Positions 1 through 45,170 of a stretch of 64,000 bases of DNA are shown one piece after another. The translations under genes were made by a program, and so were the position numbers. A model generated the notes under the pieces. That model did not search any database. It was given only the letters and a program-made list of their open reading frames with translations, and was not told where the DNA came from. The number at the start of each line of letters is the position of its first letter. Positions within the stretch are counted from its first letter, which is position 1. This DNA is from Rhodococcus sp. ARC_M6 (GTDB taxonomy: Bacteria; Actinomycetota; Actinomycetes; Mycobacteriales; Mycobacteriaceae): assembly GCF_022810305.1 (NCBI RefSeq), contig NZ_JALGQH010000015.1:1-64000 (forward strand), written 5' to 3'.

Positions 1-3000
1 TCGAATGTTGCGTATGTGATTTACACGTCGGGTTCGACGGGTCGCCCGAAGGGTGTGCAGGTTCCGCATTCGACGGTGGCGAAGTTGTTCGCGAATACGG
101 AGAGTGTGTACGGGTTCGACGAGTCGGATGTGTGGACGATGTTCCACAGTTATGCGTTCGACTTTTCGGTGTGGGAGCTGTGGGGTCCGCTGCTCTACGG
201 TGGCACGTTGGTTGTGGTCGATTACGTGACGTCGCGTTCGCCGGAGCAGTTCCTGGAATTGCTGGCGCGGGAGCGGGTGACGGTGCTGAATCAGACGCCG
301 TCGGCGTTCTATCAGTTGGCTGAGGCTGATCGGTTGGTATCCGAAGCTGGTGCGGCGCCCGCGTTGTCGTTGCGGTGGGTTGTGTTCGGCGGTGAGGCGC
401 TCGAGCTTCGGCGGTTGTCGGAGTGGTTCGGCCGCCGTGGTGATGTGTCGCCGACGTTGGTGAATATGTACGGCATCACGGAGACGACGGTGCATGTGTC
501 GCATCGTGCTGTGGATGCGGTGATGGCGGCGGGTGCGTCGGCGAGTGTTGTGGGTCAGGCTATTTCGGGTCTGCAGGTGTTCGTGTTGGATCGGCGTTTG
601 GCTCCGGTGCCGGTGGGTGTCGCGGGTGAGATGTATGTCTCGGGTGTGCAGTTGGCTCGGGGTTACCTCGGTCAGTCGGCGTTGACGTCGACTCGTTTTG
701 TGGCGAGTCCGTTCTCTGCTGGTGAGGTGCTGTATCGCACGGGTGACGTCGCCTCGTGGAACGGTGCGGGGGACTTGGAGTATCTGGGTCGCGCGGATGA
801 TCAGGTGAAGGTCCGTGGTTTCCGGATCGAGATCGGTGAGATCGAGTCTGCGGTGTTGGCGGATGTGTCGGTGGCGCAGACGGCTGTGGTGGTGCGTGAG
901 GATTCGCCGGGGGATCAGCGTCTGGTGGCGTATGTGGTGCCGGCGATCGGCGCGAGTGTGTCGGTGGACGAGTTGCGTGTGGCTGTCGCGGGTGTGTTGC
1001 CGGAGTACATGGTGCCGTCGGCGTTTGTGGTGTTGGATGCGATTCCGTTGACGGTGAACGGGAAGTTGGATCGTCGGGCGTTGCCGGTGCCGTCGTTCGA
1101 GGTTGCGGTGTTCCGGGCTCCGGCGTCGGTGGTGGAAGAGGTTGTTGCGCAGACGTTTGCGGATGTTCTGGGTGTAGAGCGTGTGGGCTTGGATGATGAT
1201 TTCTTTGCGCTTGGTGGCAACTCGTTGGTGGCGACGCAGGTGGTGTCGCGTTTGGGTCAGGCTTTGGATGCTTCTGTGGGTGTGCGGGAGTTGTTCGAGG
1301 CGTCGACGGTAGAAGGTTTGGCGGCTCGTTTGGGCTCGCACGTGGGCGGCGGTTCACGCATCGCACTGACTGCGCAGACGCGTCCGGCGCAGGTGCCGCT
1401 GTCGTTCGCGCAGCAGCGGATGTGGTTCCTCAACCAGTTGGATACGTCTTCCGCTGCCAGCAACATTCCGATGGCTATCACGCTCACCGGTGAGCTGGAT
1501 CAGACTGCCTTGTACGACGCCGTCATGGACGTGCTCAAGCGCCATGAGATTCTGCGCACGGTCTACCCCGAGGTTGACGGCACCGGCTACCAGCGGATTC
1601 TTCCGGCTGCGGCGGTTCCGGTGAATCTTGCTCCGGTGCAGGTCGATGCGTCCGACATCGTGTCGGCAGTGACCGAATTCTGTTCGGCCGGTTTCGACGT
1701 CACCGCTGAGGTTCCGTTGCGGGCCACACTGTTCCAGGTTGGCGACAACAGTTTTGTCTTGGCCATCGTCATCCATCACATCTCCACCGACGGTTTCTCG
1801 ATGGGACCGTTGACTCGCGATGTGATGAGTGCGTACTACGCGCGGTCAGTAGGAAACACTCCGACGTGGGCGCCGTTGCCGGTGCAGTATGCCGACTATG
1901 CGCTGTGGCAGCGGGAGGTCCTCGGATCGGAAGCCGACGCCGAATCTGTTCTGGCTCAGCAAATCGACTACTGGGCGCGCACGCTCGACGGTGTCCCGGA
2001 TCAGATCACACTGCCCAGCGACCGGGTTCGCCCGGCCGTGTTCACAGGGCGCGGCGCAACACTGAGTTTCCCCGTCTCTGCCGAGACACATCGCGGGCTG
2101 CTCGCAGTAGCACGCGATAACCAGGCGTCGCTGTTCATGGTGATGCACTCGGCATTGGCAACGCTGCTCGCACGATTGTCCGGTACCACCGACATTGCCG
2201 TCGGTACACCCGTCGCCGGTCGCGGTGAGGCGGAACTCGACGATCTGATCGGCATGTTCGTCAACACCCTGGTGCTGCGTACCGAGGTGGATCCGGGGAT
2301 GCGTTTCCGCGATCTACTGGCGTCCGCGCGCGAGACCGATCTTGCAGCCTTTGCGCACGGAGACGTGCCGTTCGAGCGGTTGGTCGATGTTCTCGATCCC
2401 GTTCGCTCGCAGGCTCACAATCCGTTGTTCCAGGTGGCCTTGGCTTTCCAGAACCTGGGGCAAAGCCAACTGACTCTGCCGGGTCTCGATATTGCAGAGT
2501 TCGACATCGCCGAAACCGTTGCCAAGTTCGACCTGCAGTTGACGTTGGTCGAAGCTGTTGACGGTCACGGAATGACGGCGACCTTCACTTACGCGACGGA
2601 CTTGTTCGACGAGGGGACAGTTGTCTCCTTCGCCGCCCGGTTGACTCGCATTCTCGAAGCGGTTGTCGGGGATGCGAGTCAGCCTGTCGGCGACATCGAC
2701 ATCCTCGAAATACCTGAGCGTCTCGAATTGACCAGTCGTCGAGCTTCTTCGGGTATCTCGCCGAAGCCGTTGGCCGATATCCTGGCCGAGACCGCGTTGC
2801 GGTACCCGGGCAATGAGGCACTGCGCTTCGAGGATCGTTCGATGACCTACGCCGAGGTCGACGCGTGGTCGTCGCGGCTTGCCCGTGTTCTGATCGCGCG
2901 TGGTTTGGGTGCGGAAGATTTGGTGGCGGTATCGATTCCGCGTTCGATCGAATCGGTTCTGCTCGTGTGGGCGGTGTCCAAGGCGGGTGCGGCTGTGGTT

Positions 3001-6000
3001 CCGATCGATCCGCATTATCCGGCTGACCGTATCGCGCACATGGTGTCCGACTCGGGTGTCGCAGTAGGTTTGACGCTGGAAGCTGAACTGGCGGGTCTTA
3101 CGGATACTGTCGAGTGGCTCGCTGTCGACAGTGTGCAGTGTGCGGAACTGATGGCAGCGCAGGACAGTTCGCCGGTGCGTGCCGACGAGCGCGTTCGCCC
3201 CGTTTTGCCGGCGCATCCGGCTTGGGTGATTTACACGTCGGGAACGACGGGCTTGCCCAAGGGTGTTGTGGCTACCGGTGCCGGTCTCGCGAGCTTCAGT
3301 GCGACGCAGGCACAGCATTACAAGGTCACTCCGAACTCTCGCACCCTGCACTTTGCGTCGCCGAGTTTCGATGCGTCGATGCTCGAGCTGTTCTTGGCTG
3401 TGGCGACCGGTGCGGCCATGGTGATTGTGCCGACGTCGGTCTATGGCGGCGACGAGTTGACTGAACTGTTCACGTCGGAGCGTGTCACGCATGCGTTCAT
3501 CACGCCGGCGGCTTTGGCGTCGATGGATCCGTCGGGTCTTGACGATCTCGCGGTTGTGGGTGTGGGCGGTGAGGCGTATTCGCCGGAGTTGATGGCGAAG
3601 TGGGCGGATCAGTCGAATCGTCGTCGGACGTTCCTCAATGTGTACGGGCCGACCGAGACGACGATCGTCACCAATGTCAGTGAGCCGTTGATGCCGGGCG
3701 ACCGGATGACCATCGGCGGAACCATCGGCGATATGGCGGCGTTCGTGCTCGATACGCGTTTGCAGCCTGTTCCGGTGGGTGTTGCGGGTGAGCTGTATCT
3801 TTCGGGTCCGCAGGTTGCTCGTGGTTACCATCGTCGTCCGGGTTTGAGTGCGGATCGTTTTGTGGCGAATCCGCATGGTCTGCCCGGTGAGCGTATGTAT
3901 CGCACGGGTGATGTTGTGCGTTGGACGGATCAGTTTGCGGTGGAGTATGTGGGCCGCAATGATTTCCAGGTCAAGATTCGTGGTTTCCGTATCGAGCTCG
4001 GTGAGATCGATGCGGCGTTGACGGCTCATTCGGCTGTGGAGTTTGCGGCGACGATGGGTACGACCCTGTCATCGGGTGCGACTGCGCTGGTGTCGTATGT
4101 GTTCATCGGCAAGGATTCGGCTGTGAGTTCGGCAGAGCTGAGTGAGTTCGTCTCGCGCACTCTGCCCGCGCATATGGTGCCGGCGTCGATCATGGTTTTG
4201 TCGGAGATGCCGTTGACCCCGGCGGGCAAGTTGGATCGAAAGGCTTTGCCGGATCCGGTCTTTGAGGTCAAGGAGTTCCGCGCTCCCGCCACGGAGATGG
4301 AACGAATCCTCAGCGAGGTCTTCGCGGACGTACTCGGACTTGACCAGATCGGCACCGACGATTCGTTCTTCGCTCAGGGCGGCGACTCGATCATGTCGAT
4401 TCAGTTGGTTTCGCGCGCCAAGGGACGTGGAATTCTCTTCTCTCCCAAGGACGTGTTCGAGAACAAGACTGTTGCGGCACTGGCGGAGGTCGCTGTATTC
4501 GGCTCCGACGCCGACGCGGCCACTGTTCTGTCCGAGATCGAGGGCGGTGGCACCGGTTGGATGCCGCTTACTCCGATTGAGCGATTCATGTTCGAACGTC
4601 CCGGTAGCTACCAGCGATTCAACCAGTTGTTGACGCTGGAACTTCCGAAGGGAATCGACCGGACCGGTGTTGTCGAAACATTGACCGCTGTCATCGATCA
4701 CCACGACATGTTCCGCTCGCGTCTGGTGGAGGATCAGCGCGGTCCGGGTATGAGTGTCTCCGAACCAGGGACTGTCGATGCCGACGCACTGGTACGCCGG
4801 GTGTCGGTGGATCCCGCAGTGGCAGAAGCAGAACTGACTGCCATCGCGTCGGGAGCACTCGACGATGCACTCGGTCGATTGAATCCCGCAGCGGGCGTCA
4901 TGGCGCAGTTCGTCTGGATCGACTTCGGCGACGAGCGCACCGGCCGGTTGATCGTGGCGGCGCACCACCTGATCGTCGACGGCGTCTCCTGGCGAATCAT
5001 CGTGCCGGACTTGATCTCTGCGTGGGCGCAGCGGTCGGGCGGAACAACGCCCGTGCTCGAACCGACGGGCACGTCCATGCGCACGTGGGCACATTCGTTG
5101 GCTGCGGAATCGCGGTCCGACAAGCGACTTGCAGAATTGGCGCGCTGGCGTAAGACACTGTCGACGCCGGACCCGGTTCTCGGCTCACGGGCATTCAACC
5201 CGTCCGTCGATGTCGCGGCAACAGTGGCGCGCGTTCGCGTCGAGGTGCCCGCAGATGTCACCGAAACACTCCTGACCACGTTGCCGGAGGTGTTCCGCGG
5301 CGGTGCCAACGACGGACTGTTGGCCGGACTGGCTCTGGCGCTGGTGCGTTGGCGTCGTGAACGAGGTATCAGCACCGAAGCAGCATTGCTCCAACTCGAA
5401 GGCCACGGCCGCGAAGAAGGCGTAGTTCCGGGAGCAGATCTCTCACGCACAGTCGGTTGGTTCACGGCTGCATTCCCGATCAGCCTCGATCTGGCCGGTA
5501 TCGACGTCGACGATGCGTTCAACGCCGGAGTCGCGGCAGGACAGTCGATCAAGGCAGTCAAGGAACAGCTGCTCGCCATCCCGGACAAGGGAGTGGGTTA
5601 CGGACTGCTGCGCTACCTGAACGACGAGACTCGGGCGGAACTCACGAAACGCAGTAGCGGTCAGATCAGCTTCAACTACCTGGGCCGCATTGTGGCGGAG
5701 GATATTCCGGCTGCAGCCCAGGAGCTCGGATGGATTCCGGCTCGGGACTTCTCCGAAGTCAGTGCGCCGGAAGACCCGGACATGCCCGCCAACAAGGTCG
5801 TCGACATCAATGCCATCGTCAACGACGGAGCCGGCGGAACAGTGCTCGAAGCGTCGTTTGCGTTCCCGAGCGGCCTGCTGGCCGAGGCAGAAGTCCAGGC
5901 TCTGGCCGATCTGTGGGTCGAAGCCCTGACGGCCTTGGCGAAGCACGCACGCACCACGGATGCCGGCGGACTCACACCGTCGGACGTGCCGCTGGTAACG

Positions 6001-9000
6001 CTCACCCAACAGGACCTCGACGGCTTCGAGCAGCGTTTCCCCGCTGTGCAGGACGTGTGGCCGCTCGCACCGCTGCAGTCAGGCCTGCTCTTCCATGCGG
6101 TGATGGCCGAGTCGACCGTCGACCTGTACTCGGTGCAGATGGTGCTGTCACTCTCCGGCCGTGTCGACGCAGATCGACTGCACGCTGCCGCGCAGAGCAT
6201 CGTCGACCGTCATCCGAACCTCCGGACCGCCTTTGTCGTCGACGGAACCGGCACACCTGTGCAGGTTGTTCTCGGCGGAGTTGACGTACCGTGGCGCGAG
6301 ATCGATCTCAGTGAGATCGCCGATGTAACTGAACGCACTGCCGAGTTGGATCGACTACTCGTCGAGGACCAGGCAACACACTTCGACATGTCCACCCCGC
6401 CGTTGATCAAGTTCACGCTGATCAAGCTCGCGGCCAGTGAGTACCGTCTGGTTGTGGCGAACCACCACATCATTCTCGATGGCTGGTCAATGCCGTTGCT
6501 GCTCCAGTCGCTTCTGGGTCATTACGCGATGCGCGGGAACATTCCCGCGCAGACGCGGGCACTGAGCTACCGGAACTACCTGGCCTGGCTGGTTCAGCAG
6601 GATCGCAGTGTTTCCATGGACGCCTGGGCGCAGGCGCTCGGTGGCGTCGAAGAGCCGACGTTGTTGGCTCCGACCGTCTCCGGCCAGGAGTTCAGTGCGC
6701 TGTCGCAGAAGCTGCAGCTCTCGCTCAGCGAATCGGTTACCGCGTCACTCACCGGTTTGGCTTCCCGTTCGGGTGTCACTGCCAACACGATCGTTCAGGC
6801 TGCCTGGGCAATCCTGTTGGGACGCTTGACCGGGCGCCAGGACATTGTCTTCGGTGCCACGGTCTCCGGCCGTCCGCCGCAGCTCGACAGCGTCGAGAAG
6901 ATGGTGGGCCTGTTCATCAACACGCTTCCCGTGCGAGTGCAGTTGGACTTGGCCGAGTCCGTCGAGGCTTTGCTTTCGCGGATTCAGATCGAGCAGGCAG
7001 GACTGCTCGATCACCACTACCTCGGACTGACCGACGTACAGAGCGCTGCCGGTGTCGGCGGATTGTTCGACACCTTGGTCATCTTCGAGTCGTACCCGGT
7101 CGACCGTGAAGGACTTGCCGCGCAGGCAGAGTTCTTGGACGGGATGATGATCGACGATGTCACGTCCGACGACTCGACCAACTACCCGCTCACTCTCCTG
7201 GTGGGTCTGGACGACCAATTGCACGTGACGCTCCGGTACCTGCCGGACTTCTTCGACGAGTCGTACGCTCAGGCTCTGTTGGGCCGCCTCGAAACGTTGC
7301 TGACCGAAATCGGCGAAACTCCCACTGTTGCAGTCGGAGACATCGAGATCATGACCGCCGCCGAGCGCAGTCTGGTGCTCGACACGTGGAACGACACTGC
7401 TCAGGTGACGGTGGGTGGGTTGTTGTTGGATGGTTTCGATTCGGTGGTGGCGGTGTCTCCGGGGGCGCGGGCTGTGGTGTTCGGTGAGCAGGTGTTGTCG
7501 TATGCGGAGTTCGACGTCAAGGTGAACAGGCTTGCGCGGTATCTGATTGGGCTGGGGGTGGGTCCGGAGTCGTTGGTGGGGTTGGCGGTTCGTCGGTCGA
7601 CGGATTTGTTGGTTGGGTTGTATGCGATTGTGCGTGCGGGTGGGGCGTGGGTGCCTTTGGATCCGGATGCGCCGTCCTCGCGTAATGAGTATGTGTTGGA
7701 GACGGCTGATCCGGTGTGTGTGGTGTCGACGGAGCGTGATGGTTTCGTGGCGTCGGGTCGTCGGGTTGTGTGTGTTGATGTTGTTGATGTGTCTGGTTTT
7801 TCGGGTGCGCGGGTGTTGGATGTGGATCGGTTGGGGCCGTTGCGTTCGGGGAATGCGGCGTATGTGATTTTCACGTCGGGGTCGACGGGTCGTCCGAAGG
7901 GTGTGGCGGTTTCGCATGGGGCGATTGTGAATCAGTTGGAGTGGATGCAGGCGGAATATGCTTTGTCGTCTGCGGATGTGTATTTGCAGAAGACGGCGAC
8001 GACGTTCGATGTGTCGTTGTGGGGGTTTTTCATGCCGTTGCGGGTGGGGGCGACGTTGGTGGTGGCTTCTCCGGATGGTCATCGGGATCCGGGGTATTTG
8101 GCGTCGGTGATTGATGAGCAGGGTGTGTCGGTGACGGATTTTGTTCCGACGATGTTGTCGACGTTTTCGTCGTTGGTGGATCCGGGGTTGTTGGGTTCGT
8201 TGCGTGATGTGTTGGTGATTGGTGAGGCGTTGCCGGTGGAGGCGGTGCGGGAGTTTTCGGCGGTGTCGTCGGCGCGGGTTCATAATTTGTATGGTCCGAC
8301 GGAGGCGGCGGTGTCGTTTACGTTTGCGGATGTGACGGCTGCTGGGTCGGGGTCGGTGGTGTCGATTGGTGTGCCGGAGTGGAATTGCCGGGTGTTTGTG
8401 TTGGATTCGCGTTTGCGTCCGGTGCCGGTGGGTGTTGCGGGTGAGTTGTATTTGTCGGGTGTGCAGTTGGCTCGGGGGTATGTGGGTCGGCCGGATTTGA
8501 GTGCGGATCGGTTTGTGGCGTCTCCGTTTGGTGTGGGGGAGCGGATGTATCGGTCGGGTGACCTTGTGAGGTGGTCGTCTGATGGGGATCTGGAGTACAT
8601 CGGTCGTACTGATTTTCAGGTGAAGTTTCGTGGTCAGCGGATTGAGTTGGGGGAGATCGAGGCTGCGTTGGTTGCGCATGGGTCGGTGTTGTCGGCTGCG
8701 GTGTTGGTGCGTGGCAGTGTGACGGGTGATCAGTTGGTGGGGTATGTGGTGCCGGCTGTGGGTGCGTCGGTTGATGTGTCGGTGTTGCGGGGGTTTGTGG
8801 GGGAGCGGGTTCCGGGTTATATGGTTCCGGCGGCTGTGGTGGTGTTGGATGCTTTTCCGTTGAATTCGTCGGGGAAGTTGGATCGTGGGTTGTTGCCGGA
8901 GCCGGTGTTTGAGGCTCGGGTGTTTCGGGCTCCGGTGTCGGTGGTGGAGTTGGTGGTGGCGTCGGCGTTTGTGGGTGTGTTGGGTGTTGATCGGGTGGGG

Positions 9001-14176: not shown

Positions 14177-27829
<13,653 letters not shown>

Positions 27830-27874: not shown

Positions 27875-28041
27875 GGACTGTCGGCAATGCCCTGGCTGTA
27901 ACAATGACTGCGGGTTGCCGATGAGCTGTGGGGAGCCAGTACGGGCCTGCAAGTAAGTGGAAACAAGAATTACGTGAAGGTGAGTTGTCTGATGGCGCCA
28001 GTGGCCGACGTATCTGCAGATCGATCACTGGACGTGATCGC

Positions 28042-35711: not shown

Positions 35712-36764
35712 TCAGACGCCCAAAGAGTTGGCGATGAACGGCCAGGACTTGTGGAGATCGTCCTGCCAGTAGCCCCACGAGTGGGTGCCCGTCGGGCGGA
35801 AATCCACCACGGCCGGAATGTTCAGCTCGAACAGACGCTTGGCCATATTCGAGGTGCACAGGTTTGTTGCAGCTTCGATCACGCCGCCGACGATGATCTG
35901 GTTCTCGAGATTTGCACGACCATCGTTCATACGCGGATTCTGCATGGAGTCGTTCGGGAAGCCGGGGAGTCCGTTGCCGGTGCTCATGTAGATCGGCGTC
36001 CCGCGCAACTTCTCGGCGTTGAGCAGCGGATCATGCTCGCGCCAACCCGGACCGTCGAGGGGGCCCCACATGTTCGTGACGTCGTCGACGCCACCGATCC
36101 ACTCGGTGGTGATCCGGACGAACTGCTGGCCCATCGGATCGCTCGTCTGTGCACAGCCGCTGTAGGCAGCGACTGAGCTGTAGAGGCCGGGGTGTTCGAT
36201 CGCGAGATTCAGTACCGAGGTTCCGGACATCGAGATTGCCGACAGTGCCTGCTTACCGTTGCTTCCCAGTTCCTTGTTCAGAATCGGGGGCAGTTCCTCA
36301 CCGAGGAATGTCGACCACTTGTTTCGGCCGGCTTTTGGGTCGTCCTTTTCCCAGTCGGTGTAATAGGAAAGGCGTCCGCCGACCGGGGTCGCGACGTTGA
36401 CGTTCTTATCGCTGAAGAAGTCGACAACATCCGACTGACGTTGCCAGGTTGCCGAGTCTTCTCCGCCGCCTGCGCCGTTCAAAAGGTAGAGAATGGGGCG
36501 AGGCTCGGAATTATCGGCCGGAGTGATGACCTGGATGGGCACCACCTTGTCCATCGACGCGGCATAGACGTTGACGACGAGTTGCCGATCATTAATCTTC
36601 TGCACCGACTTGACGTACGAATCGCTCGTAGCCACGTCGGATGCGGAATCGCTCGTATTCGTCGGAGCTGCTTGCGCAATGCCGGCGGTGAACAGTGAGC
36701 AGGCGATTGCCAGTACTCCGACATGCGTGGCGCGACGCCAGGCTGGTCTCGTGTTTCGCGTCAA
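35712..36764 (-). CDS. Secreted antigen 85-type mycolyltransferase/esterase
   Basis: 350 residues. The start is TTG (36764–36762) with GAGAGG nine bases upstream; no in-frame ATG lies before the signal peptide. Residues 12–32 form a signal peptide (GVLAIACSLFTAGIAQA). The alpha/beta-hydrolase nucleophile elbow is SAISMSG (Ser178), and the catalytic His is in GTHSWGYW (His328), the block typical of antigen 85 and corynomycolyltransferases. Such enzymes move mycolic acid between trehalose monomycolate and cell-wall acceptors outside the membrane. Rhodococci carry many paralogs, so its place between an NRPS exporter and an amidase may be incidental. Alternatively it could acylate the exported peptide, which is speculation. 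A 146-bp gap separates it from the upstream permease gene. Confidence 0.88.
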   Translation of the reverse strand: MTRNTRPAWRRATHVGVLAIACSLFTAGIAQAAPTNTSDSASDVATSDSYVKSVQKINDRQLVVNVYAASMDKVVPIQVITPADNSEPRPILYLLNGAGGGEDSATWQRQSDVVDFFSDKNVNVATPVGGRLSYYTDWEKDDPKAGRNKWSTFLGEELPPILNKELGSNGKQALSAISMSGTSVLNLAIEHPGLYSSVAAYSGCAQTSDPMGQQFVRITTEWIGGVDDVTNMWGPLDGPGWREHDPLLNAEKLRGTPIYMSTGNGLPGFPNDSMQNPRMNDGRANLENQIIVGGVIEAATNLCTSNMAKRLFELNIPAVVDFRPTGTHSWGYWQDDLHKSWPFIANSLGV

Positions 36765-36910
36765 GACTTCTTACCTCTCGTTTGAAACTTTTCGGAAGAC
36801 GATTCAATGGCTCCGAATGGATAAGTCGATTCGATCGTCGTATTCGTTACTTCAGCGAGACGTTTTGCGGTCTAGCAGTGACGATTTCGATCGGTGTCCT
36901 TGGATTGGTT

Positions 36911-37762
36911 CTATCTCGAAGCGGCCCGCCGGTATCCCCGGATTGCTGGATAAAGGAAGACTGCAATCATTCCGAATGACCAGGCAAATGTCTTGAGTAC
37001 AGGCTCGAGGACTGGCCCGCCGAGAGACATTCCACGCATAGCTTCCACCGCCACGGACATGGGCTGTGCTGCAATGACGGGCTGTAACCAGACCGGATAT
37101 GCCATCGTCGGGACAAAACCGCTGTTGAAGAACATGAGCAGGGTGCATCCGATGGAGACGATCTCGACGAGCGGAAGATTCTCGGACACTGTGGCAAGAG
37201 CCGTCACCATCACGGCAAATCCGATTCCGAAAGCGATCGGCAGGAGAATCATGCCGATCGCAGCTACCGGACCTTGATTGAATCGGAACCCGACAAGACA
37301 TCCGACTCCGATGATGACGATGGTCGTGAGGAGAACCCGCACGGCTTCCGCAATCATTCGACCCACCAAGCCGGAGGCGCGATGGGCGGGAAGGGTCCAG
37401 AAACGACTGAGTAGCCCACTGGTCATTTCGCCTCGAAGACCGACGGCACTCGCAATGGACCCAAACATCGCTCCGACCAGAATGATCAACGGAACGGTGC
37501 CGTAAATACTGGGCTGTCCGGTTGCGGCGCTGATCGAGTTTCCGAGAACAACACGAAACATGATGAGTGTCAGAGCTGGGTACAGCAGTGCTTGGATCGC
37601 GGTGGATGGGTCACGCGCCCAATTGATCAGAAGGCGTTTCGCCTGGATCAGACTGTGCGTCCAGAGCGCCTGCGTGGAGCCTTCCGGAAGTGCCGCATCA
37701 GGTACGGGGAAATTCAGGGTGCGTCCGTTGGTCGGTTGCGCCGAATTGTCGACTGCCGTCAT
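36911..37762 (-). CDS. ABC-2 type transporter permease (DrrB/DrrC-like)
   Basis: 283 residues, start ATG 37762, overlapping the stop codon of the preceding permease by one base (TGATG), so translation is coupled. Hydrophobic segments begin near ALLYPALTLIMF, TVPLIILVGAMFG, VLLTTIVIIGVGCLVGF, AIGMILLPIAFGIGFAVMV and IVSIGCTLLMFF, with a last one near the C-terminus, giving the usual six membrane spans of the ABC-2 family. It contains RDPSTAIQALLYPALT, resembling daunorubicin-type exporter permeases. With the second permease and the ATPase it should form one exporter, whose likely cargo is the product of the neighbouring NRPS genes (inferred from position). The reading frame extends upstream to 37828 inside the other permease gene; that extension is rejected. 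Confidence 0.88.
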   Translation of the reverse strand: MTAVDNSAQPTNGRTLNFPVPDAALPEGSTQALWTHSLIQAKRLLINWARDPSTAIQALLYPALTLIMFRVVLGNSISAATGQPSIYGTVPLIILVGAMFGSIASAVGLRGEMTSGLLSRFWTLPAHRASGLVGRMIAEAVRVLLTTIVIIGVGCLVGFRFNQGPVAAIGMILLPIAFGIGFAVMVTALATVSENLPLVEIVSIGCTLLMFFNSGFVPTMAYPVWLQPVIAAQPMSVAVEAMRGMSLGGPVLEPVLKTFAWSFGMIAVFLYPAIRGYRRAASR

Positions 37763-38625
37763 CACGACCGCCTCGTGCTTGCCCAGTACGCGAGCGGAGC
37801 GCACACAGCGATCAATCCGAGCGACCACATGAGCACGGGGAACATGGTGTTCCAGGTGACGCCGCCTTGGGCGAGGTCACGCATCGCGAAGGAGAACTGC
37901 GACACCGGCTGATTACGTACGAAGGGACGGATCCACTCGGGGAAACCGGTTTCCGGCACGAAACCACAGGAGAGCATCCCGAGGATCAGCTGAGGAAGAG
38001 TCAATGCCTGACTCGTAGCTTGAGGGCTCTTGGACAGCGAACCGATGGCATCGGCGCCGAATGACAGACACGTGCTGAACACCAGTGCCAAAGTGCAGAA
38101 CAGAATTGCCTGATTGAGGCCTTCGGTGAATCGGAATCCGATTGCGTGCCCGTAGATGAGGGCAGCGGTCAGTGAGAATACTGATCGCACGAACCCACTA
38201 CTCATACGCGAGAGCAGGGGGACTGCTCCGTAGACGGGCATCGTCTGCATTCGGGAACTGAAACCTGTGATCCGCTCCCTGGCTGCCATCTGAGCAGCTG
38301 AAATCGAGGTGAAGGCCATAGCCTGCAACACGATGATCGGCATCAGGAACTGGGCATAGTCGATGCCTTGCAGTTGCATCACGAACTTCAACGGCAGGTA
38401 GAAGCCGACAGTGAAAATCAGTGGGGCAATCACAGCGATGACAAGTTCGTAGCGACGGATCATCGAGCGCAACGTGCGGCCCGTCAGTACCCACCACTGC
38501 ATAACTGCTGAGGGGTTAGGGCGTCTATGCCGCCCGACGCGTGTGGCGGCCGGAACCGAAATCTCCCGAAGAGCCACCTTTTGCAGGGACAAGTTCGTAG
38601 TCGGATATTTCGTCGTAGTGGTCAC
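37762..38625 (-). CDS. ABC-2 type transporter permease (DrrB/DrrC-like)
   Basis: 287 residues, ATG at 38625 overlapping the ATPase stop by four bases (ATGA). After a cytoplasmic N-terminus (about 45 residues) and the segment TLRSMIRRYELVIAVIAPLIFTV, six hydrophobic stretches follow, including FLMPIIVLQAMAFTSISA and AILFCTLALVFSTCLSFGADA. It carries the NPFVRNQPVSQ-like loop (here PFVRNQPVSQFS) characteristic of doxorubicin/daunorubicin-resistance permeases. It forms the membrane channel with its neighbour. Order ATPase–permease–permease with overlapping codons indicates a single transcript read leftward from the 39612–39954 intergenic region. Confidence 0.9.
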   Translation of the reverse strand: MTTTTKYPTTNLSLQKVALREISVPAATRVGRHRRPNPSAVMQWWVLTGRTLRSMIRRYELVIAVIAPLIFTVGFYLPLKFVMQLQGIDYAQFLMPIIVLQAMAFTSISAAQMAARERITGFSSRMQTMPVYGAVPLLSRMSSGFVRSVFSLTAALIYGHAIGFRFTEGLNQAILFCTLALVFSTCLSFGADAIGSLSKSPQATSQALTLPQLILGMLSCGFVPETGFPEWIRPFVRNQPVSQFSFAMRDLAQGGVTWNTMFPVLMWSLGLIAVCAPLAYWASTRRS

Positions 38626-39611
38626 GACACATCACCGGCTTTGCCGGCGTCCGCGGTTGACTGATGACCGGTCAACGAGAGGAAGACATCGTCGAGGGAC
38701 GGACGCCTCAAGGCGATGTCGGCGAGCGGGATTCTGGCATGGTCCAAACGTCGGAGCGCCTCGGCGAGTGTCGCGGAACCTCGCGGAGCGGGGATGGCGA
38801 TCTTGCCGCTGTCCCGGGCCAGATCGAATCGGAAATCCGGCGGGAGGAGGTTGCCCAAGGCGTTGGCGACAGCGCCGAGCATGTTGGTATCCGTCGGCAC
38901 GATCTCACAGAAGCTTGCTCCGGTGCGCGCCTTCAGCTCGTCTGCGGTTCCCTCGGCGATAACCGAACCCTTGTCGATCACGATGATGTTGTCGCTGAGA
39001 AGATCGGCTTCCTCGAGGTACTGCGTTGTCAGCAGAACAGTGATGCCCTGATCCTTCAGCGTCTGCACGAGATTCCACACGCTCTGCCGACTGCGGGGAT
39101 CCAATCCTGTCGTCGGCTCGTCCAGGAACACGACTTCGGGGCGAACGACGAGGCCACAGGCGATGTCGATACGGCGACGCATACCACCGGAATAGTTGGC
39201 GACGGTTCGAGCGCCTGCTTCGACCAGATCGAATTCTTCGAGGAGATCAACTGCTCGCTGCTTGGCAGAGGCGCGATCGAGTCCCATCAGACGAGCGAAG
39301 AGTTCGATGTTCTCCCGGCCGGTCAGAGCATTGTCGAGGGCCGCGAACTGGCCGGTCATCATGATCGAGCGTCGAACCTCCGCGGCATTGCGCACGGCGT
39401 CGTATCCGGCGATCATGGCGCGGCCGCTGTCCGGACGAATGAGCGTCGAGAGCACTTTGACGGTTGTGGTCTTGCCTGCGCCGTTGGGTCCGAGGATGCC
39501 GAGAACCGATCCTTTGGGGGCCTGGAAGCTGATTCCGCGCAGGGCGTGGACATCTTTGAAGGACTTGTGAACGTCCTCCACGACTACGGCCGCATCCGTG
39601 GGAAAGGGCAT
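38622..39611 (-). CDS. ABC transporter ATP-binding protein (DrrA-like)
   Basis: 329 residues. ATG at 39611 follows GGAG by five bases. Walker A is GPNGAGKT (residues 41–48), the signature is YSGGM (140–144), Walker B is VFLDE with Glu165, and the H-loop region reads [11 protein letters not shown]. The C-terminal extension of about 90 residues after the nucleotide-binding domain, with DVFLSLTG near the end, is typical of the DrrA/NodI subfamily that powers export of hydrophobic natural products. It is cytoplasmic and pairs with the two downstream permeases. First gene of the leftward export operon, divergent from the glycosyltransferase. Substrate is inferred from context only. Confidence 0.93.
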
Positions 39612-39880: not shown

Positions 39881-39898
39881 GACTGCCTGTCGGATGAC

Positions 39899-39923
39899 TG
39901 ACGTCACGCGAACATTGATGTTC
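39899..39923. promoter_or_regulatory. Two adjacent palindromes upstream of glycosyltransferase
   Basis: TGACGTCA (39899–39906) and GAACATTGATGTTC (39910–39923; six-base arms, two-base centre). The second overlaps the candidate -35 box of the glycosyltransferase promoter, so it is a reasonable operator candidate. Confidence 0.5.
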
Positions 39924-39944
39924 CGACGGTGTAGCGAGTGATAA
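39915..39944 (+). promoter_or_regulatory. Candidate promoter of glycosyltransferase gene
   Basis: TTGATG (39915–39920), 18-bp spacer, TGATAA (39939–39944). The ATG follows ten bases after the -10 box and no Shine-Dalgarno sequence is visible, so the transcript may be leaderless. Confidence 0.4.
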
Positions 39945-39954
39945 CCTGCCGTCC

Positions 39955-40815
39955 ATGGGTGCCTTGCTTTCAGTTGTCGTTCCGGTCTATAACGAAGAAG
40001 AATATATTTCGGATTGTCTCGAGTCTTTGTTGCAACAGGGCGACGATATTACTGAAATATTGGTGGTCGACAATAATTCGACCGACAGAACCCCTGAGAT
40101 AATTCGTGATTTCGAGCGCAGGTTTCCCAAAGTTCGCTATCTGTTGGAAACTCGGCAGGGCGTCGTTTTTTCGAGAAACTTGGGGTTCAATTCAGCTCAG
40201 GGTGAGTTGATCGGGCGAGTAGACGCGGACACGAGGGTGTCTGCAGGTTGGGCCAATGCGATCGTCGAGTTTTTTGCCGCGCCTGAATTCGACGCTGTTA
40301 CCGGGTTTTCGTTATTCTATGACTCGCCCTTTGCGACCGTGCAACGCACGGCAGTCGCAAAGCAGGATGCTCTCGGAAAATTCGAAGGTCTGAAAGATGC
40401 GCCCTCATTAACCGGTTCGAACATGGCGATCCGAAAATCCGCATGGTCGATCGTGCAAGATTCTGTCTCTGATCGCACAGATTTTCACGAAGATGTCGAT
40501 CTTTCGTATTGCCTGCTCGGTCGTGGAATGAAATTTTCTCAGGACCTTTCGATGCGAGCGGAAGTTTCCGGCCGTCGCGGAGAAACCGGACCGATAGAGT
40601 TTCTTTCCTACAACAAAGCCTCCGTTCTCACATTGAAGCATCATGGGGCTATGACGCGTCGACTCCGCCTGATGATTTTTCGGAGTTCGATATTGCATGC
40701 GGTTTTATGGCCCGCCTATCGAATGTATGACAAAGACACGGACAAACTGTCTTTGAAGAGGCTCTTCTTCCGGCCTTCAGCGCGGCAGATGCCAGTGGAT
40801 TCGGTAGATCGCTGA
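39955..40815 (+). CDS. Family 2 glycosyltransferase
   Basis: 286 residues. The N-terminus SVVVPVYNEEEYISDCLESL and LVVDNNSTD are the nucleotide-sugar binding fold of GT-A family 2 enzymes; the metal-binding DxD is Asp90-Ala-Asp92 (RVDADTR). GSNMAIRKSAW and HEDVDLSY fit the acceptor and catalytic-base region. There is no clear signal peptide or multi-span membrane domain, so it is probably cytosolic or peripheral. It would transfer a sugar to a lipid, wall or peptide acceptor that cannot be read here; glycosylation of the NRPS product is a contextual guess. It is visibly richer in A+T than its neighbours (for example gaagaagaatatatttcgg), suggesting separate acquisition. It ends one base before the convergent N-oxygenase gene. 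Confidence 0.87.
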   Translation: MGALLSVVVPVYNEEEYISDCLESLLQQGDDITEILVVDNNSTDRTPEIIRDFERRFPKVRYLLETRQGVVFSRNLGFNSAQGELIGRVDADTRVSAGWANAIVEFFAAPEFDAVTGFSLFYDSPFATVQRTAVAKQDALGKFEGLKDAPSLTGSNMAIRKSAWSIVQDSVSDRTDFHEDVDLSYCLLGRGMKFSQDLSMRAEVSGRRGETGPIEFLSYNKASVLTLKHHGAMTRRLRLMIFRSSILHAVLWPAYRMYDKDTDKLSLKRLFFRPSARQMPVDSVDR

Positions 40816-40816
40816 C

Positions 40817-41767
40817 TCAGCGAAGAGGCTTGTCGACGCCTAGGGTGTCGAACAGTTTTCGGATTCCACTGAAATCCTGAACGAGCAGTTCAGACCCGGG
40901 GGAGTGCTCGACGTCCTCGATCATCCGGTTTCCGCCGGTGATGTCCTCAGCCTCCATGATCGCCCGCCAAGCGCCGAAGTCATTGCCGGCAAAAGCCGCC
41001 ATCGCTCCGGCCGCCCCGTCGACGAAGCGTCGACGCGACTCGACGTCGAGAGCCTCGAACACGGAAACGGCTAGAGCGTCGGCAATGGACGCGTGGCAAA
41101 GTTCGTCCCGATTGTGGAGTCGGACCGTCGCGCGATTTACCGGCTGGATATCTTCACCGTCGATGATCACGTCGAGGTATGAGCTGATGGAGATCTCCGC
41201 GACCGTCATGTATGCCAGGGAGACAACTGCGCGTGAGTGAGCATCCGGGCACTCGGTGAGCGCCCGCGCTCGGCTCCGGACCGTCTGTACGTCCGGCAGA
41301 AGCTTTGTCGGCAACGGCAATCCGCGTCCACGGCGGGTCAAAGAACTCGCGTTGAGATGCATCAACGTGTGGTATTGCTCGTCGACCATCGCCTGATTAA
41401 CCGCTACTTCGACGGAATCGCCGAATCCGACGTCGAACGCATCCACGGCAAGTAGTTCGAACCCCGGATTGACCACTGTTCGTTCGATATCCATCACATT
41501 CTTGTTGAAGGCGATCCAGGCCCAGGCTCGGAGTCGTATTTGTTGCTCAGACGTGAGAGCCAGATAGACGGGATGCTGCGCGAAGGGAAGCAAAGCGTCC
41601 GGATAGTCGAACTTCGTGATGTCGAAAAGGTCCTCGAGTTCGGGCTCGGATCTTTTGACGGCGGCTCGACGCGACCAGTTCTCGGCAAGCCGACGGACGA
41701 TCGCACTTTCGGCAGGATCCTTGGCATCGAATCCGGGAAGTGTCGGTGGAGCTACTCCGTGTCTCAT
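40817..41767 (-). CDS. AurF/CmlI-type di-iron arylamine N-oxygenase
   Basis: 316 residues, ATG 41767 with AGGA seven bases upstream. The helical di-iron core has all seven ligands expected from AurF in matching spacing: Glu95 (DIERT), Glu130 and His133 (DEQYH), Glu191 (EISIS), His218, Glu222 and His225 (LHNRDELCHAS). The family oxidises aromatic amines to hydroxylamine, nitroso or nitro compounds (AurF in aureothin, CmlI in chloramphenicol biosynthesis). It lies nine bases after papC in an operon that should make 4-aminophenylpyruvate or 4-aminophenylalanine, so an N-oxidised aryl unit is predicted. Whether it acts on the free amino acid, the carrier-bound residue or the finished peptide, and how far oxidation goes, cannot be read from the sequence. 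Confidence 0.85.
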   Translation of the reverse strand: MRHGVAPPTLPGFDAKDPAESAIVRRLAENWSRRAAVKRSEPELEDLFDITKFDYPDALLPFAQHPVYLALTSEQQIRLRAWAWIAFNKNVMDIERTVVNPGFELLAVDAFDVGFGDSVEVAVNQAMVDEQYHTLMHLNASSLTRRGRGLPLPTKLLPDVQTVRSRARALTECPDAHSRAVVSLAYMTVAEISISSYLDVIIDGEDIQPVNRATVRLHNRDELCHASIADALAVSVFEALDVESRRRFVDGAAGAMAAFAGNDFGAWRAIMEAEDITGGNRMIEDVEHSPGSELLVQDFSGIRKLFDTLGVDKPLR

Positions 41768-41776
41768 CGATCTGTC

Positions 41777-42652
41777 CTACTTCCGTGAGCCGATCTCCTC
41801 GAAGACCCGCCGGCACAGGGTGTCCAACTCCTCGGATCGGCTCCCGAGTCCCTCCGAGGCAGATTTCACCACGTCCGAGAAGTTCTCCAGATCCGCGGTT
41901 GCCGAGTCCAGTCGGACGCATGCCGTGATCAAGGCTTTGCGGGCAGTCTCCGCATAGGGGTTTCCCGATTGAACGTCCCAATACACCTCGGGTTCGCCGT
42001 TCACGATTCGAGCCAGCAAGGCCGAAAGCGTCCGGTGTGGGGGAGTCTCGACGTCGGCGACTTCTTCGGCGCTCACGCCGAGTTCGCCCAGTGCAAGGCC
42101 GAATGCCAGGACCGATGCGTGGGTCAAGGCCTGAGTTGCCGCAGCAAGGCGGTCATGACGATTCGGGTCCATCACGGAAACTATTGCTCCCCACGTACGC
42201 AGGCTTTCGACAAGATCTGTACCTCGCGGACCGTCGATGTACGGAACGGCGATGATCGGTCGTCCCGCGGGGCCGAGTGAGGGCCGAAACATCGGATTGA
42301 CCCCGAGGAATTCGCCCGTCCGGCCCGAATTTTCGACGGCAACCGACATTCGAGATTTGACCGACAGCGTGTCGACGATCAGGGCATCGGGGCGAACCGC
42401 TCGCACAAGTGTCGGCAAGGATGCGAGTGCGACAGTTTCTGGCACGGCCAGGATGACGATGTCGGCTGAGGTGAGAGCCCGGAGCAGGATGTCGTCCGGA
42501 CCGGTGACATCGCCGCGCAGAGGGCTGTCCGGGTCCGCCGGATCGAGAATTGTGACAGGCCTTCCGTCTCGGCGCATGAGATCGACAAGCATGGATCCGA
42601 CCGCTCCGGCGCCTCCGACCACGATCACGTCGTCACACCCAACCGGCGACAT
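41777..42652 (-). CDS. papC: Prephenate dehydrogenase-like, probable 4-amino-4-deoxyprephenate dehydrogenase
   Basis: 291 residues from ATG 42652; two GTG codons just upstream (42658, 42655) are alternatives, the first sharing a base with the papA stop. The N-terminal NAD(P)-binding loop is VVGGAGAVGSM (Gly13–Gly19), followed by a Rossmann fold (IVILAVPETVAL, ALIVDTLSVKSRM) and a helical C-terminal half with THASVLAFGLAL, as in prephenate dehydrogenases. Next to an aminodeoxychorismate synthase and a chorismate mutase-like gene it most likely acts as PapC, oxidatively decarboxylating 4-amino-4-deoxyprephenate to 4-aminophenylpyruvate. A role in ordinary tyrosine synthesis cannot be excluded from sequence alone, but the operon argues for a secondary-metabolite copy. 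Confidence 0.82.
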   Translation of the reverse strand: MSPVGCDDVIVVGGAGAVGSMLVDLMRRDGRPVTILDPADPDSPLRGDVTGPDDILLRALTSADIVILAVPETVALASLPTLVRAVRPDALIVDTLSVKSRMSVAVENSGRTGEFLGVNPMFRPSLGPAGRPIIAVPYIDGPRGTDLVESLRTWGAIVSVMDPNRHDRLAAATQALTHASVLAFGLALGELGVSAEEVADVETPPHRTLSALLARIVNGEPEVYWDVQSGNPYAETARKALITACVRLDSATADLENFSDVVKSASEGLGSRSEELDTLCRRVFEEIGSRK

Positions 42653-42657
42653 CACCA

Positions 42658-44772
42658 CTACCTGCCGAGTTCGTCGGTGTGACTGGCAACGACGTCGAGC
42701 GCACGAAGCAAAGTCGACGCCTTGACCGTCGTTTCGTCGAACTCTTCCTCGGCGTCGGACAATGCCGTGATGGCTCCGCCGATACCGAAACTGACACCGG
42801 TAGAGGTAGCGACCAACGAGCGGATGACGATCGACAGATCAGCGGCGCCGCCGAGAGCAAAATATCCGATGGATCCGGAATACACTCCGCGAGGACCGGA
42901 TTCCAGACGGTCGATGATCTCCATGGTCCGCACTTTGGGTGCTCCCGTCATGGATCCGCCAGGAAATGCGGCCCGAACGCAATCGACAGCAGAGGATCCT
43001 GCACGCAGCGCGCCCCGCACGGTCGACACCATCTGATGGACCGACGAATACGATTCGATCCCGAATAACCGTGGAACATGCACACTGCCGGGAACGCACA
43101 CTTTTGCAAGATCATTTCGCGTGAGGTCAACGATCATCAGGTTTTCGGCGCGGTCCTTCTCACTGTCGAGTAGGTCCTGTCGCAGCGCGGCATCCCGTGC
43201 TCGGGTGACGCCTCGAGGTCGTGTGCCCTTGATGGGTTTGGACTCGACGTTGCCTTCGGAGTCGACCCGCAGAAACCGTTCCGGGGAGGCAGAGATCACC
43301 GCTATTCCGGTGAAATCGAGCAGTGCGCTGTAGGGGGTCGGATTGATGCCGCGCAAGAACTCGAAAGTGCGTCGGGGATCGATCGTCTCGGTGACACTGG
43401 CCATGTTCGTCAGGCACACCTCGTACGATTCGCCGACGCGGATCTGTTCGAGTGCATCCTCGATCAGGGCCAGATATCGATTCCGGTCATGACGCAGACG
43501 TGCTTGTGTCCAGACGGTTTCACTGATTAGGGGAACCGGGATTCGCTCCCCGGTTGCAGCGCCGATGTCGGCCAGAACATCGATGGTATGCGCGAGCCAG
43601 TCGTCTTCGACTGTGCTGTCCCGATCGCCGCTGTTCCAATCTTCCGGCGAGGAGTTCTCGCGTAGACGCAGGACGTGTGTCCTGCCGGCGGTGTGGTCGA
43701 TGACAACAGCGCGGTCGGCAAAGACGAATGCAGCGTCGGGAGTATCTGCGGAGTGCGCCGAAACGCCACCGGTCTGCGCTTTCAACTCGTATCCGAGATA
43801 CCCGACATATCCGAGATTGAAGTCGAGTTCCGGATCCGCCGGTATGAACCGGGTCACCAGTTGCCCATCGAGATAGTCGAAGAACGGAACATGAATGTTC
43901 TCTTCCGGCAATCCTTTTCGGGCAACTGTGACAACTCCGCTTCCCACGTCGTACGTGATGAACTCTGCCAAGGGCCCGGATGCGTCACCCATGATCGTGA
44001 ACCGAGCGTCGGGTTCCGACGTCGCGGCTCGATCCAGCCAATAGGCGTTGGGGCCGTCGGCGAACAAGGCGGAATACGCTGCCGAAGGATCCACTGCGAA
44101 ATCAAGACGAACCTTGTCGACTCGGTAAGACGACGCGGGTCGCAGACTCGATGCGTGCACCGGTGGATCCTGGTGCATGACCGACTCGAGAGTCCGCCCG
44201 ATCGACAGATTGCGGAAATTGGTCAGCAGTTCGACCCCGAATTCCGTACTTATCGATTCGGGATGGAACTGAACCCCCCACATCGGCTTGGTCCGATGGC
44301 GCACGCCCATGATCAAGCCGTCCGACGTCCAGGCGGTGCGAACAAAGGTGTCCGGGAGGTTTTCGACGGTCAGCGAGTGATAACGGACTGCACGAAACGG
44401 CGAAGGCAATCCGGCGAAGACCCCGGTGCCGTCGTGGTCGACGAGCGAAATTCTGCCGTGCATGGGCTTAGGTGCGAGGACGACGTCGGCCCCGAACAGT
44501 TGGCAGAGCCCTTGATGTCCGAGACAGACACCGAGTAGGGGGAGCGGACCTTCCTCGACGAATCTTCGGCTGACACCGAAGTCACGCCCCCGATCGGGCC
44601 GGCCTGGACCTGGCGAGATCACGACGTTGTCGAATGCGGCAAGGTCGAGGGAGTCCCAGTCCGCGTCGTTGGTGATGACGGTGGGTACCACGCCGTTGAC
44701 CTTGGTGAGAAGTGTGAAGAGATTGTATGTGAACGAGTCGTAATTGTCCACGAGGAGCGTGCGGGAACTCAT
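42658..44772 (-). CDS. papA: 4-amino-4-deoxychorismate synthase, fused glutaminase–synthase
   Basis: 704 residues from ATG 44772; the open frame extends 30 codons further but homology starts at MSSRTLLVDNYDSFTYN. The N-terminal half is a class I glutamine amidotransferase with triad Cys83 (GVCLGHQ), His170 and Glu172 (GVQFHPES). The C-terminal half is a chorismate-binding domain with VDLTRNDLAKV, SSVHQM, PGGSMTGAPK and PIKGTRPRG. The lysine of PIKGT (Lys515) is diagnostic of aminodeoxychorismate synthase, since anthranilate synthases have Ala there. The fused architecture matches PapA of pristinamycin and chloramphenicol-type clusters, which converts chorismate and glutamine to 4-amino-4-deoxychorismate. 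The start codon overlaps the papB stop by four bases. No separate lyase gene for folate synthesis is nearby, supporting diversion to 4-aminophenylalanine. Confidence 0.9.
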   Translation of the reverse strand: MSSRTLLVDNYDSFTYNLFTLLTKVNGVVPTVITNDADWDSLDLAAFDNVVISPGPGRPDRGRDFGVSRRFVEEGPLPLLGVCLGHQGLCQLFGADVVLAPKPMHGRISLVDHDGTGVFAGLPSPFRAVRYHSLTVENLPDTFVRTAWTSDGLIMGVRHRTKPMWGVQFHPESISTEFGVELLTNFRNLSIGRTLESVMHQDPPVHASSLRPASSYRVDKVRLDFAVDPSAAYSALFADGPNAYWLDRAATSEPDARFTIMGDASGPLAEFITYDVGSGVVTVARKGLPEENIHVPFFDYLDGQLVTRFIPADPELDFNLGYVGYLGYELKAQTGGVSAHSADTPDAAFVFADRAVVIDHTAGRTHVLRLRENSSPEDWNSGDRDSTVEDDWLAHTIDVLADIGAATGERIPVPLISETVWTQARLRHDRNRYLALIEDALEQIRVGESYEVCLTNMASVTETIDPRRTFEFLRGINPTPYSALLDFTGIAVISASPERFLRVDSEGNVESKPIKGTRPRGVTRARDAALRQDLLDSEKDRAENLMIVDLTRNDLAKVCVPGSVHVPRLFGIESYSSVHQMVSTVRGALRAGSSAVDCVRAAFPGGSMTGAPKVRTMEIIDRLESGPRGVYSGSIGYFALGGAADLSIVIRSLVATSTGVSFGIGGAITALSDAEEEFDETTVKASTLLRALDVVASHTDELGR

Positions 44773-45170
44773 GACGATGATCCTGATCTCGGGCCGACGG
44801 ATTCCCGAACAGTCTCCTCCTCGGTAGCTTGGCCGTCGATCACCAGGTCTTCGAGTCGGCAAGTCTCGGCGATCACCAATTCGTACAACGCTTCGAAGAA
44901 CTCGGGTGACAGGTCATGCCGAAGGGCGAATTGTCGAGCTCGTTCCTGCACTAGATGCACCCGCCCGGGTTGCATCATCGGAACGTTGCTGACCCGCTTC
45001 CATTCTCCGATCTGCAGGCAGAGCAGCAGTCGCTCGCGGACCGTCTCGAGCAATGCAGCGTCGATGGCGTCGAGTTCGCGGCGAAACTGTTCGAGATTGT
45101 CGATCCGGGCGTGATCCGACTCGGTCGCGGGATTCTGGGTAGGACGGGTCGAGGGCTGGAAGTTGGCCAC
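44769..45170 (-). CDS. papB: AroQ-type chorismate mutase, probable 4-amino-4-deoxychorismate mutase
   Basis: 133 residues from GTG 45170, chosen because AGGAGG lies four bases upstream; the frame stays open to 45260 without further homology. The core is the three-helix AroQ pattern: FRRELDAIDAALLETVRER, IGEWKR, then QPGRVHLVQERARQFAL and FFEALYELVIAETCRLED. In PAPA-forming operons the PapB homolog rearranges 4-amino-4-deoxychorismate to 4-amino-4-deoxyprephenate; plain chorismate mutase activity is the alternative. It is the first gene of the papB-papA-papC-N-oxygenase operon and translationally coupled to papA. The 225 bp upstream must hold the promoter; no convincing boxes were found there. 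Confidence 0.85.
   Translation of the reverse strand: MANFQPSTRPTQNPATESDHARIDNLEQFRRELDAIDAALLETVRERLLLCLQIGEWKRVSNVPMMQPGRVHLVQERARQFALRHDLSPEFFEALYELVIAETCRLEDLVIDGQATEEETVRESVGPRSGSSS

Follow-up and report, generated by a model that had tools for sequence, protein, structure and literature searches.

The pap locus and its probable peptide synthetase partners

The first 64,000 nucleotides of contig C8 of Rhodococcus sp. ARC_M6 (the window, here the whole stretch of DNA analysed) carry three collinear, plus-strand genes for non-ribosomal peptide synthetases (NRPSs), a DrrABC exporter, a pap operon and the S10 ribosomal-protein operon. The pap operon is the subject of this report; its enzymes probably supply 4-aminophenylalanine, which would later be N-oxidised, to synthetases of lipopeptides, among them those of the humimycin type. 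Its four genes all lie on the minus strand, as papB (44769..45260), papA (42658..44772), papC (41777..42658) and a gene for a CmlI/AurF-type diiron arylamine N-oxygenase (40817..41767), where a reading of this DNA made from its letters alone (the sequence-only reading) had placed a papB-papA-papC operon with an AurF-type enzyme. That reading also saw an exporter beside the NRPS genes, and the genes for DrrC, DrrB and DrrA of an ATP-binding cassette (ABC) exporter are indeed found at 36911..39611 on the minus strand; DrrA scores over the TIGR01188 cut-off (374.3 vs 312.45), and the two Drr permeases score below the cut-offs of their own models.

The first synthetase gene, NRPS1 (1..14055, plus strand), is cut by the contig start, and the part within the window is the C-terminal half of a synthetase of about 9,550 amino acids (aa), comprising modules 5-8 and the condensation (C) domain of module 9. 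NRPS2 (14177..27829, plus strand) has four modules and ends in a C domain, and NRPS3 (27928..33864, plus strand) has two modules and a terminal thioesterase. Ten adenylation (A) domains, the first of them cut by the contig start, together with the thioesterase that ends NRPS3, bear out the earlier estimate of at least ten modules with a thioesterase. The order of the A domains is Thr, x (with an epimerase after it), x, x, Ser, Ser, Ser, x, x, x, with x standing for a code without an assigned substrate. The Ser and Thr calls follow the Stachelhaus codes; on this basis, the "Thr...Ser-Ser-Ser core" proposed earlier is present as Thr, x, x, x, Ser, Ser, Ser. The codes within the window are DFWNVGMVHK (Thr), DALFGGVIVK (then the epimerase), DVWDLILVSK and DLWHLILVSK in NRPS1; Ser, Ser, Ser and DLKNFGSDVK in NRPS2; and DALFVGAVAK and DVWDLILVSK in NRPS3.

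A complete relative of this line, in genome G016, consists of proteins of 9,553, 4,559 and 1,979 aa, with 14 modules and one epimerase. Its modules 1-5 read DVWDFILVSK, DLKNFGSDVK, DALFVGAVAK, Thr and Thr, modules 6-8 read DALFGGVIVK (with the epimerase), DVWDLILVSK and DLWHLILVSK, and modules 9-14 read Ser, Ser, Ser, DLKNFGSDVK, DALFVGAVAK and DVWDLILVSK, followed by the thioesterase. NRPS1 of the window is 97.4% identical to residues 4869-9553 of its G016 counterpart, and the front of the gene is found in the same assembly at the right end of contig C127, with 98.9-99.1% identity to G016 modules 3 and 1; the complete line in this genome should therefore have 14 modules. Contig C127 also carries, at 140-173 kb and about 23 kb upstream of the start of the window line, a second very large NRPS (a 10,885-aa frame) that has some A-domain codes in common with it. 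In G012, a genome of the erythropolis clade (joined here from L060-L064), the terminal, third NRPS gene (52868-74713) has grown to seven modules, and several of its A domains are identical over the stretch compared, as if by recent internal recombination.

Enzymes of the operon

PapA is, by its sequence, a fused 4-amino-4-deoxychorismate synthase and not an anthranilate synthase. It matches the solved 4-amino-4-deoxychorismate synthase 8hx6 over nearly its whole length (766 bits, compared with 205 bits for the best anthranilate synthase) and passes the NCBIfam pabB cut-off (337.4 vs 328.4); no trpE cut-off is passed among the 25 of 45 model matches listed. The PIKGT motif is present in 40/40 copies of PapA found in the 46 loci opened for comparison. 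PapB is a predicted 4-amino-4-deoxychorismate mutase of the AroQ fold, matched by CM_2 and by the "CM-like" model TIGR01803 (75.7 vs a cut-off of 73.35); its annotated start may be too early. In all 40 copies it retains R11, R28, K39 and R51 of E. coli chorismate mutase, which we take to be the four basic residues that bind substrate in that enzyme, and its active site is changed, again in 40/40 copies at each position, at D48 (to Q), E52 (to V, I, M or A) and Q88 (to E). The two chorismate mutases compared keep D..RE. These changes would fit a 4-amino substrate, as expected if the 4-hydroxyl group of chorismate is no longer read. PapC belongs, by its family model matches, to the prephenate-dehydrogenase family.

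The fourth protein matches PF11583 (166.9 bits) and is nearest, among solved structures, to 5hyg (258.9 bits vs 153.4 bits for AurF, 3chh), which we take to be CmlI of chloramphenicol biosynthesis, the PDB record itself saying "Uncharacterized protein". It also falls far under the curated AurF "exception" cut-off (174.5 vs 620). The label "AurF-type" thus names the right family, the protein being nearer 5hyg than AurF. Three motifs that presumably hold the ligands of the diiron site are conserved among its relatives: DE.[YF]HT..H in 46/46, H.[RK]DE..H in 45/46 and [AG]E[TI][ASCI] in 38/46. Taken as a set, the PapABC and N-oxygenase assignments of the sequence-only reading come out stronger than they were put there, with PapA aminodeoxychorismate-synthase-like and PapB without three active-site residues of chorismate mutase.

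Distribution and genomic neighbourhoods

The oxygenase is present in 27/28 Rhodococcus genomes (genus g1), the sole miss, G020, being 75% complete, and in 96/301 genomes of the family, spread over 7/31 genera; the proteins of the named relatives Rhodococcus sp. IEGM 1379 and R. globerulus are 91% and 83% identical to that of the window. Its presence in 27/28 Rhodococcus genomes rules out a locus unique to the strain, and uniqueness is further called into question by the "corynecin" cluster of R. erythropolis (discussed below), which may be the window locus itself, and by the humimycin-type partner of the operon in other genera. The operon was followed through 46 loci, with genes matched by tblastn; these comprise every one of the 27 in g1 and 19 of the 69 found in other genera. 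The copy in G017 is a fragment. The four-gene order is retained in other genera, beyond what chance would give.

An NRPS is adjacent to the operon in 40/46 loci, 38 of which have a C domain within about 11 kb, the other two (G002 and G022) being read from a covered stretch in which a thioesterase alone matched. As background, 6.3% of the present genome lies within 11 kb of a C domain; the 46 loci share descent and are not independent, yet their neighbourhoods differ. In the erythropolis/globerulus clade the operon lies at the S10 locus with a line of 14-19 modules. In the opacus clade it lies at another place with a line of 9-11 modules, a similar line being found in G014, and in G021 it stands beside two NRPS lines. 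In other genera it is found at the 3' end of a humimycin-type gene (g206 and g218), 5' of a shorter humimycin-like gene (g222) and 5' of a humimycin-type gene (G335, of g212). Identity of the genes, their conservation at the level of the family and their linkage to NRPSs are direct observations. The suggestion that the pap operon belongs with peptide synthetases is upheld in so far as NRPS linkage recurs across genera. The sequence-only reading had also named membership of a different conserved locus as an outcome that would count against it; this is partly the case, the commonest partner of the operon being the humimycin-type synthetase, which lies on another contig here.

Some large Rhodococcus genomes (L041, L042, L043, L044 and others) encode a second CmlI-type protein, 44-45% identical to that of the window, with no pap gene matched within the 3.9-kb stretches compared, and the oxygenase relative (49%) of L010 (Actinomadura sp. 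J1-007) has no pap gene matched within 20 kb.

Linkage to humimycin-type synthetases

Humimycin A has the sequence Tyr-Ser-D-Tyr-Phe-D-Thr-Val-Val (PMC12024397) and was predicted from IupU of R. equi (PMC5550956). The published humimycins are synthetic compounds made from predicted sequences, without an aminoaryl or nitroaryl residue (PMC12024397, PMC5550956).

When the humimycin-type starter domain of G458 was used as query (E <= 1e-140, a search that may admit related lipopeptide starters), a match was found in 93/301 genomes, among the matches listed. On the same basis, starter and oxygenase occur together in 88 genomes, the oxygenase alone in eight (G014, G305, G385, G399, G425, G502, G576 and G581), the starter alone in five and neither in 200. 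By genus, both are present in six genera, the oxygenase only in g5, and the starter only in g3 and g220. A humimycin-type gene, its span estimated from the length of the open frame, lies no more than 18 kb from the oxygenase in 13/14 genomes of g206, 14/17 of g222, 6/6 of g218 and 1/2 of g212, and in 1/27 of g1, 0/26 of g4 and 0/4 of g5 (again among the matches listed); a further 76 starter matches include none within 60 kb of the oxygenase.

In 13/14 genomes of g206 the distance between the operon and the humimycin-type gene is 0.6-17 kb. The NRPS there has seven modules, with Ser at module 2, Thr at module 5 and epimerases after modules 3 and 5, and the remaining codes are, as we read them, aromatic-type at modules 1, 3 and 4 and aliphatic-type at 6 and 7 (the codes being complete for G356 and G458 and partial for G476). 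By code types, this operon-side NRPS follows the residue order of humimycin A, and the NRPSs beside the operon in G356 and G458 have the full humimycin-type arrangement of module number, Ser, Thr and epimerases. The window NRPS differs, being a separate line with 14 modules and one epimerase that lacks this arrangement. In the present genome a humimycin-type starter (62%) lies away from the operon, on contig C19, where the line has epimerase-like matches after modules 3 and 5 and, with 6/7 codes read, is of the humimycin type as far as it has been read.

The operon is split in genus g4. With the exception of G385, the loci opened have the oxygenase and papC at the S10 locus without papA, which in 7/8 genomes is about 1 Mb from the oxygenase or on another contig; G385 keeps both together. 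In 4/8 genomes (G446, G570, G580 and G585) the distance from papA to the 3' end of the humimycin-type gene is 0.5-0.8 kb, and in G580, the one g4 locus opened at that place, papA is preceded by papB. The spacing of papA in G353 and G509 is compatible with the same arrangement, but a broken frame or a contig start intervenes; in G424 papA and the humimycin-type gene are on separate contigs, and the starter search gave no match in G385.

In module 1 of the humimycin-type synthetases, some 260 additional residues stand between the starter C domain and the A domain (residues ~430-720 in G356, whose NRPS was joined from L158, L159, L128 and L129). By eye, this stretch in G356 resembles the C-terminal half of another C domain. 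A larger C-to-A spacing is also seen in G335 (g212), G341 (g218), G441 (g222) and G021. The extra stretch may serve to recruit a tailoring enzyme.

A locus of the same kind in R. equi

The four-gene locus REQ23860-REQ23830 of R. equi is published as encoding an AroQ chorismate mutase (REQ23860), a fused TrpEG-like anthranilate synthase (REQ23850), a prephenate dehydrogenase (REQ23840) and a hypothetical protein (REQ23830); it is conserved in environmental rhodococci including R. opacus, and IupU is REQ23810, close to REQ23830 and two locus numbers beyond it (PMC2947987). Gene types and order are the same as in the window operon, with IupU nearby, and in a named R. opacus (L007) this locus consists of papB, papA, papC and the oxygenase gene. 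The match to R. equi is one of gene order, type and neighbourhood as published. REQ23860 and REQ23850 are co-regulated with virulence plasmid genes, their deletion mutants show reduced growth in macrophages and normal growth in broth, and the authors suggested in 2010 that the two genes serve aromatic amino-acid supply (PMC2947987). A set of aromatic amino-acid genes with a hypothetical protein is thus the published view of the locus, unlike the pap/oxygenase reading given here. A search of the literature, limited to an open library, found no paper linking humimycin or the R. equi genes to 4-aminophenylalanine.

Proposed pathway

In the pathway proposed here, PapA would convert chorismate to 4-amino-4-deoxychorismate, PapB and PapC would carry out the rearrangement and oxidative decarboxylation that give 4-aminophenylpyruvate, and an ordinary aminotransferase would yield L-4-aminophenylalanine. 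The CmlI-type diiron enzyme would N-oxidise the aryl amine to a hydroxylamine or nitro group, and non-ribosomal lipopeptide synthetases would use the resulting building block. The main partner in several other genera would be the humimycin-type synthetase; in the clade of the window the operon stands beside the 14-module synthetase with its own Drr exporter, a synthetase that probably also uses the building block. We infer the specificities of the enzymes, the order of N-oxidation, the incorporation, the peptide concerned and the position within it from the observations above. A probability of about 0.6 is given to the reading in which the operon supplies 4-aminophenylalanine, later N-oxidised, to lipopeptide NRPSs, namely those of the humimycin type and probably also the 14-module line. 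Rather than being private to the window cluster, the operon appears to be a conserved source of an aminoaryl block for rhodococcal NRPSs.

The logic is that of pristinamycin I, for which PapABC supply 4-dimethylaminophenylalanine to an NRPS; the window differs in that no N-methyltransferase is present among the 12 window proteins scanned with Pfam, and an N-oxygenase is found instead. In obafluorin biosynthesis in Pseudomonas, an AurF-type oxygenase and pap-like genes provide a 4-nitrophenyl unit for an NRPS. That gene set is like the one in the window, which differs in having no threonine-transaldolase-like protein among the same 12 proteins.

Several observations weigh against the supply of lipopeptide NRPSs by the operon, besides the possible breadth of the starter search already mentioned. 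The Fisher test of co-occurrence (p ~1e-59) ignores common descent. Five genomes (G343, G375, G526, G539 and G572) have the starter without the oxygenase, and 26/27 g1 and 26/26 g4 genomes have no humimycin-type gene near the oxygenase among the matches listed. Six of the 46 loci (G007, G015, G025, G359, G502 and G581) have no adjacent NRPS; in G007, G015, G025 and G359 a humimycin-type starter domain is found elsewhere in the genome, at 58-66% identity, and the two g5 loci opened have neither an adjacent NRPS nor a humimycin-type starter. No A domain can be named as the one for 4-aminophenylalanine. Picking that module by its specificity code failed, since DALF codes are not confined to operon-linked NRPSs and occur also in those of C19 and C106, which served as controls unlinked to the operon (C106 being an unplaced 6.7-kb contig). 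A DALF-type code is likewise present in the humimycin-type synthetase of G343, a genome without the oxygenase; the humimycin-type code of G375, also without it, is of the same type as in operon-bearing g222; and the codes of modules 1 and 3 in the humimycin-type genes of both G343 and G375 resemble those of oxygenase-bearing genomes.

Alternative explanations

It is conceivable, though on balance unlikely, that the operon serves the humimycin-type synthetase alone, in trans, its place beside the 14-module NRPS being positional and the peptide of that NRPS having no aminoaryl residue. A humimycin-type starter accompanies the oxygenase in this genome (on C19) and in 88/96 oxygenase-bearing genomes, among the matches listed, and in g4 papA sits at the humimycin-type synthetase while the oxygenase remains at the S10 locus. 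In Rhodococcus, however, the operon stands beside varied NRPSs (14-19 modules, the 9-11-module type, and the two lines in G021), which is hard to explain if those NRPSs never use its product, and in G014 an NRPS lies about 10 kb from the operon and nothing of the humimycin type is matched.

We consider it improbable that the operon makes chloramphenicol-like N-acyl p-nitrophenylserinols (corynecins), with the large NRPS unrelated or swept into the same antiSMASH region, an explanation that is not strictly exclusive of lipopeptide supply. A corynecin cluster was reportedly assigned by Undabarrena in 2021. The chloramphenicol/corynecin pathway has the PapABC set and a CmlI-type oxygenase in common with the window, whose oxygenase resembles 5hyg. 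The chloramphenicol NRPS is a single reductase-ended module; the partner in the window is a long NRPS whose last protein, NRPS3, has no reductase domain and terminates in a thioesterase. No CmlP-type single-module NRPS with A, thiolation (T) and reductase domains is found among the 12 window proteins scanned, the rest of the genome not having been searched. The CmlA-type beta-hydroxylase domain (PF18456) of that pathway occurs in 0/28 Rhodococcus genomes, compared with 24/295 genomes of a Streptomyces-like genus that served as control; a phylum-wide CmlA_N control, with one weak match in 296 genomes, was of no use. It is possible that another hydroxylase replaces the CmlA type. Corynecin synthesis also leaves unexplained why the operon is linked, in four other genera, to humimycin-type synthetases, and why it is split in g4. 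On the side of corynecins, and to the detriment of the lipopeptide reading, are reports of these compounds from Rhodococcus sp. H-CA8f and of 100% "corynecin" similarity by antiSMASH in R. erythropolis MGMM8 and four other strains (PMC10819586). The corynecin region of R. erythropolis PFS1.20 is 108 kb (PMC13163003), roughly the size expected for such an NRPS locus from G012, where the NRPS genes span about 65 kb, plus flanks. Equating the window locus with the MIBiG corynecin entry on this region size is no more than suggestive, and "rezu6" of R. erythropolis (five modules, PMC13336364) is a different cluster.

There is little to recommend a free aminoaryl or nitroaryl small molecule, exported by DrrABC and unrelated to any NRPS. 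It would suit G007 and G015, where drrABC is near the operon even without an adjacent NRPS, but in G025 and G359 no drrABC match lies near the operon, in the two g5 loci opened the match is weak and 15 kb off, and both the NRPS adjacency in 40/46 loci and the co-occurrence with the humimycin type speak against it. Redundant aromatic amino-acid biosynthesis by a chorismate mutase, an anthranilate synthase and a prephenate dehydrogenase, as put forward for R. equi in 2010, agrees with the family-level names (Pfam CM_2, Anth_synt_I_N and PDH) and with the poorer growth in macrophages of R. equi mutants of the first two genes, but is very hard to credit when the model cut-off, the nearest structure and the PIKGT motif all mark PapA as an aminodeoxychorismate synthase, the active site of PapB is altered, the fourth gene encodes an arylamine N-oxygenase, and the R. 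equi mutants are normal in broth in a species with other chorismate mutases and an anthranilate synthase (PMC2947987). The odds of these alternatives overlap, since a single operon can supply more than one product.

Other genes of the window

Several genes were absent from the sequence-only reading: an amidase, an esterase, a glycosyltransferase and, close to papB, the S10 operon. The amidase (33854..35557, minus strand; PF01425, 267.9 bits) has, by eye, a twin-arginine translocation (Tat)-like N-terminus, and the putative esterase (35712..36764, minus strand; PF00756, 100 bits) a signal-like start, also by eye. The family 2 glycosyltransferase (GT2; 39955..40815, plus strand) has at most 67% identity beyond the nearest relatives and is without a match in many loci. 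Between the pap operon and rpsJ lies a gene for a DUF4442 protein (45396..45872, minus strand), matched, among the 46 loci compared, solely in the erythropolis/globerulus clade and genus g4. The S10/spc ribosomal-protein operon and the genes onward (46286..64000, plus strand; gene sizes and order by inspection) lie outside the pathway, and rpsJ, rplC and rplB, likewise named by inspection, served as anchors of chromosomal position.

Implications

The supply of lipopeptide NRPSs by the pap operon would account for an arylamine oxygenase beside a giant NRPS at a ribosomal-protein locus. What would surprise a specialist is the connection with humimycin-type synthetases and with the R. equi genes. 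We tentatively propose, at somewhat less than even odds, that natural humimycins and the 14-module peptide carry 4-aminophenylalanine or its nitro form at a predicted Tyr/Phe site, and that the two macrophage-growth genes of R. equi are lipopeptide precursor genes. If this is true, the native antibiotics would differ from the synthetic humimycins, and the precursor operon would be a handle with which to find them. A specialised metabolite would then underlie the published macrophage phenotype of R. equi, and an odd link to virulence would become a testable claim.

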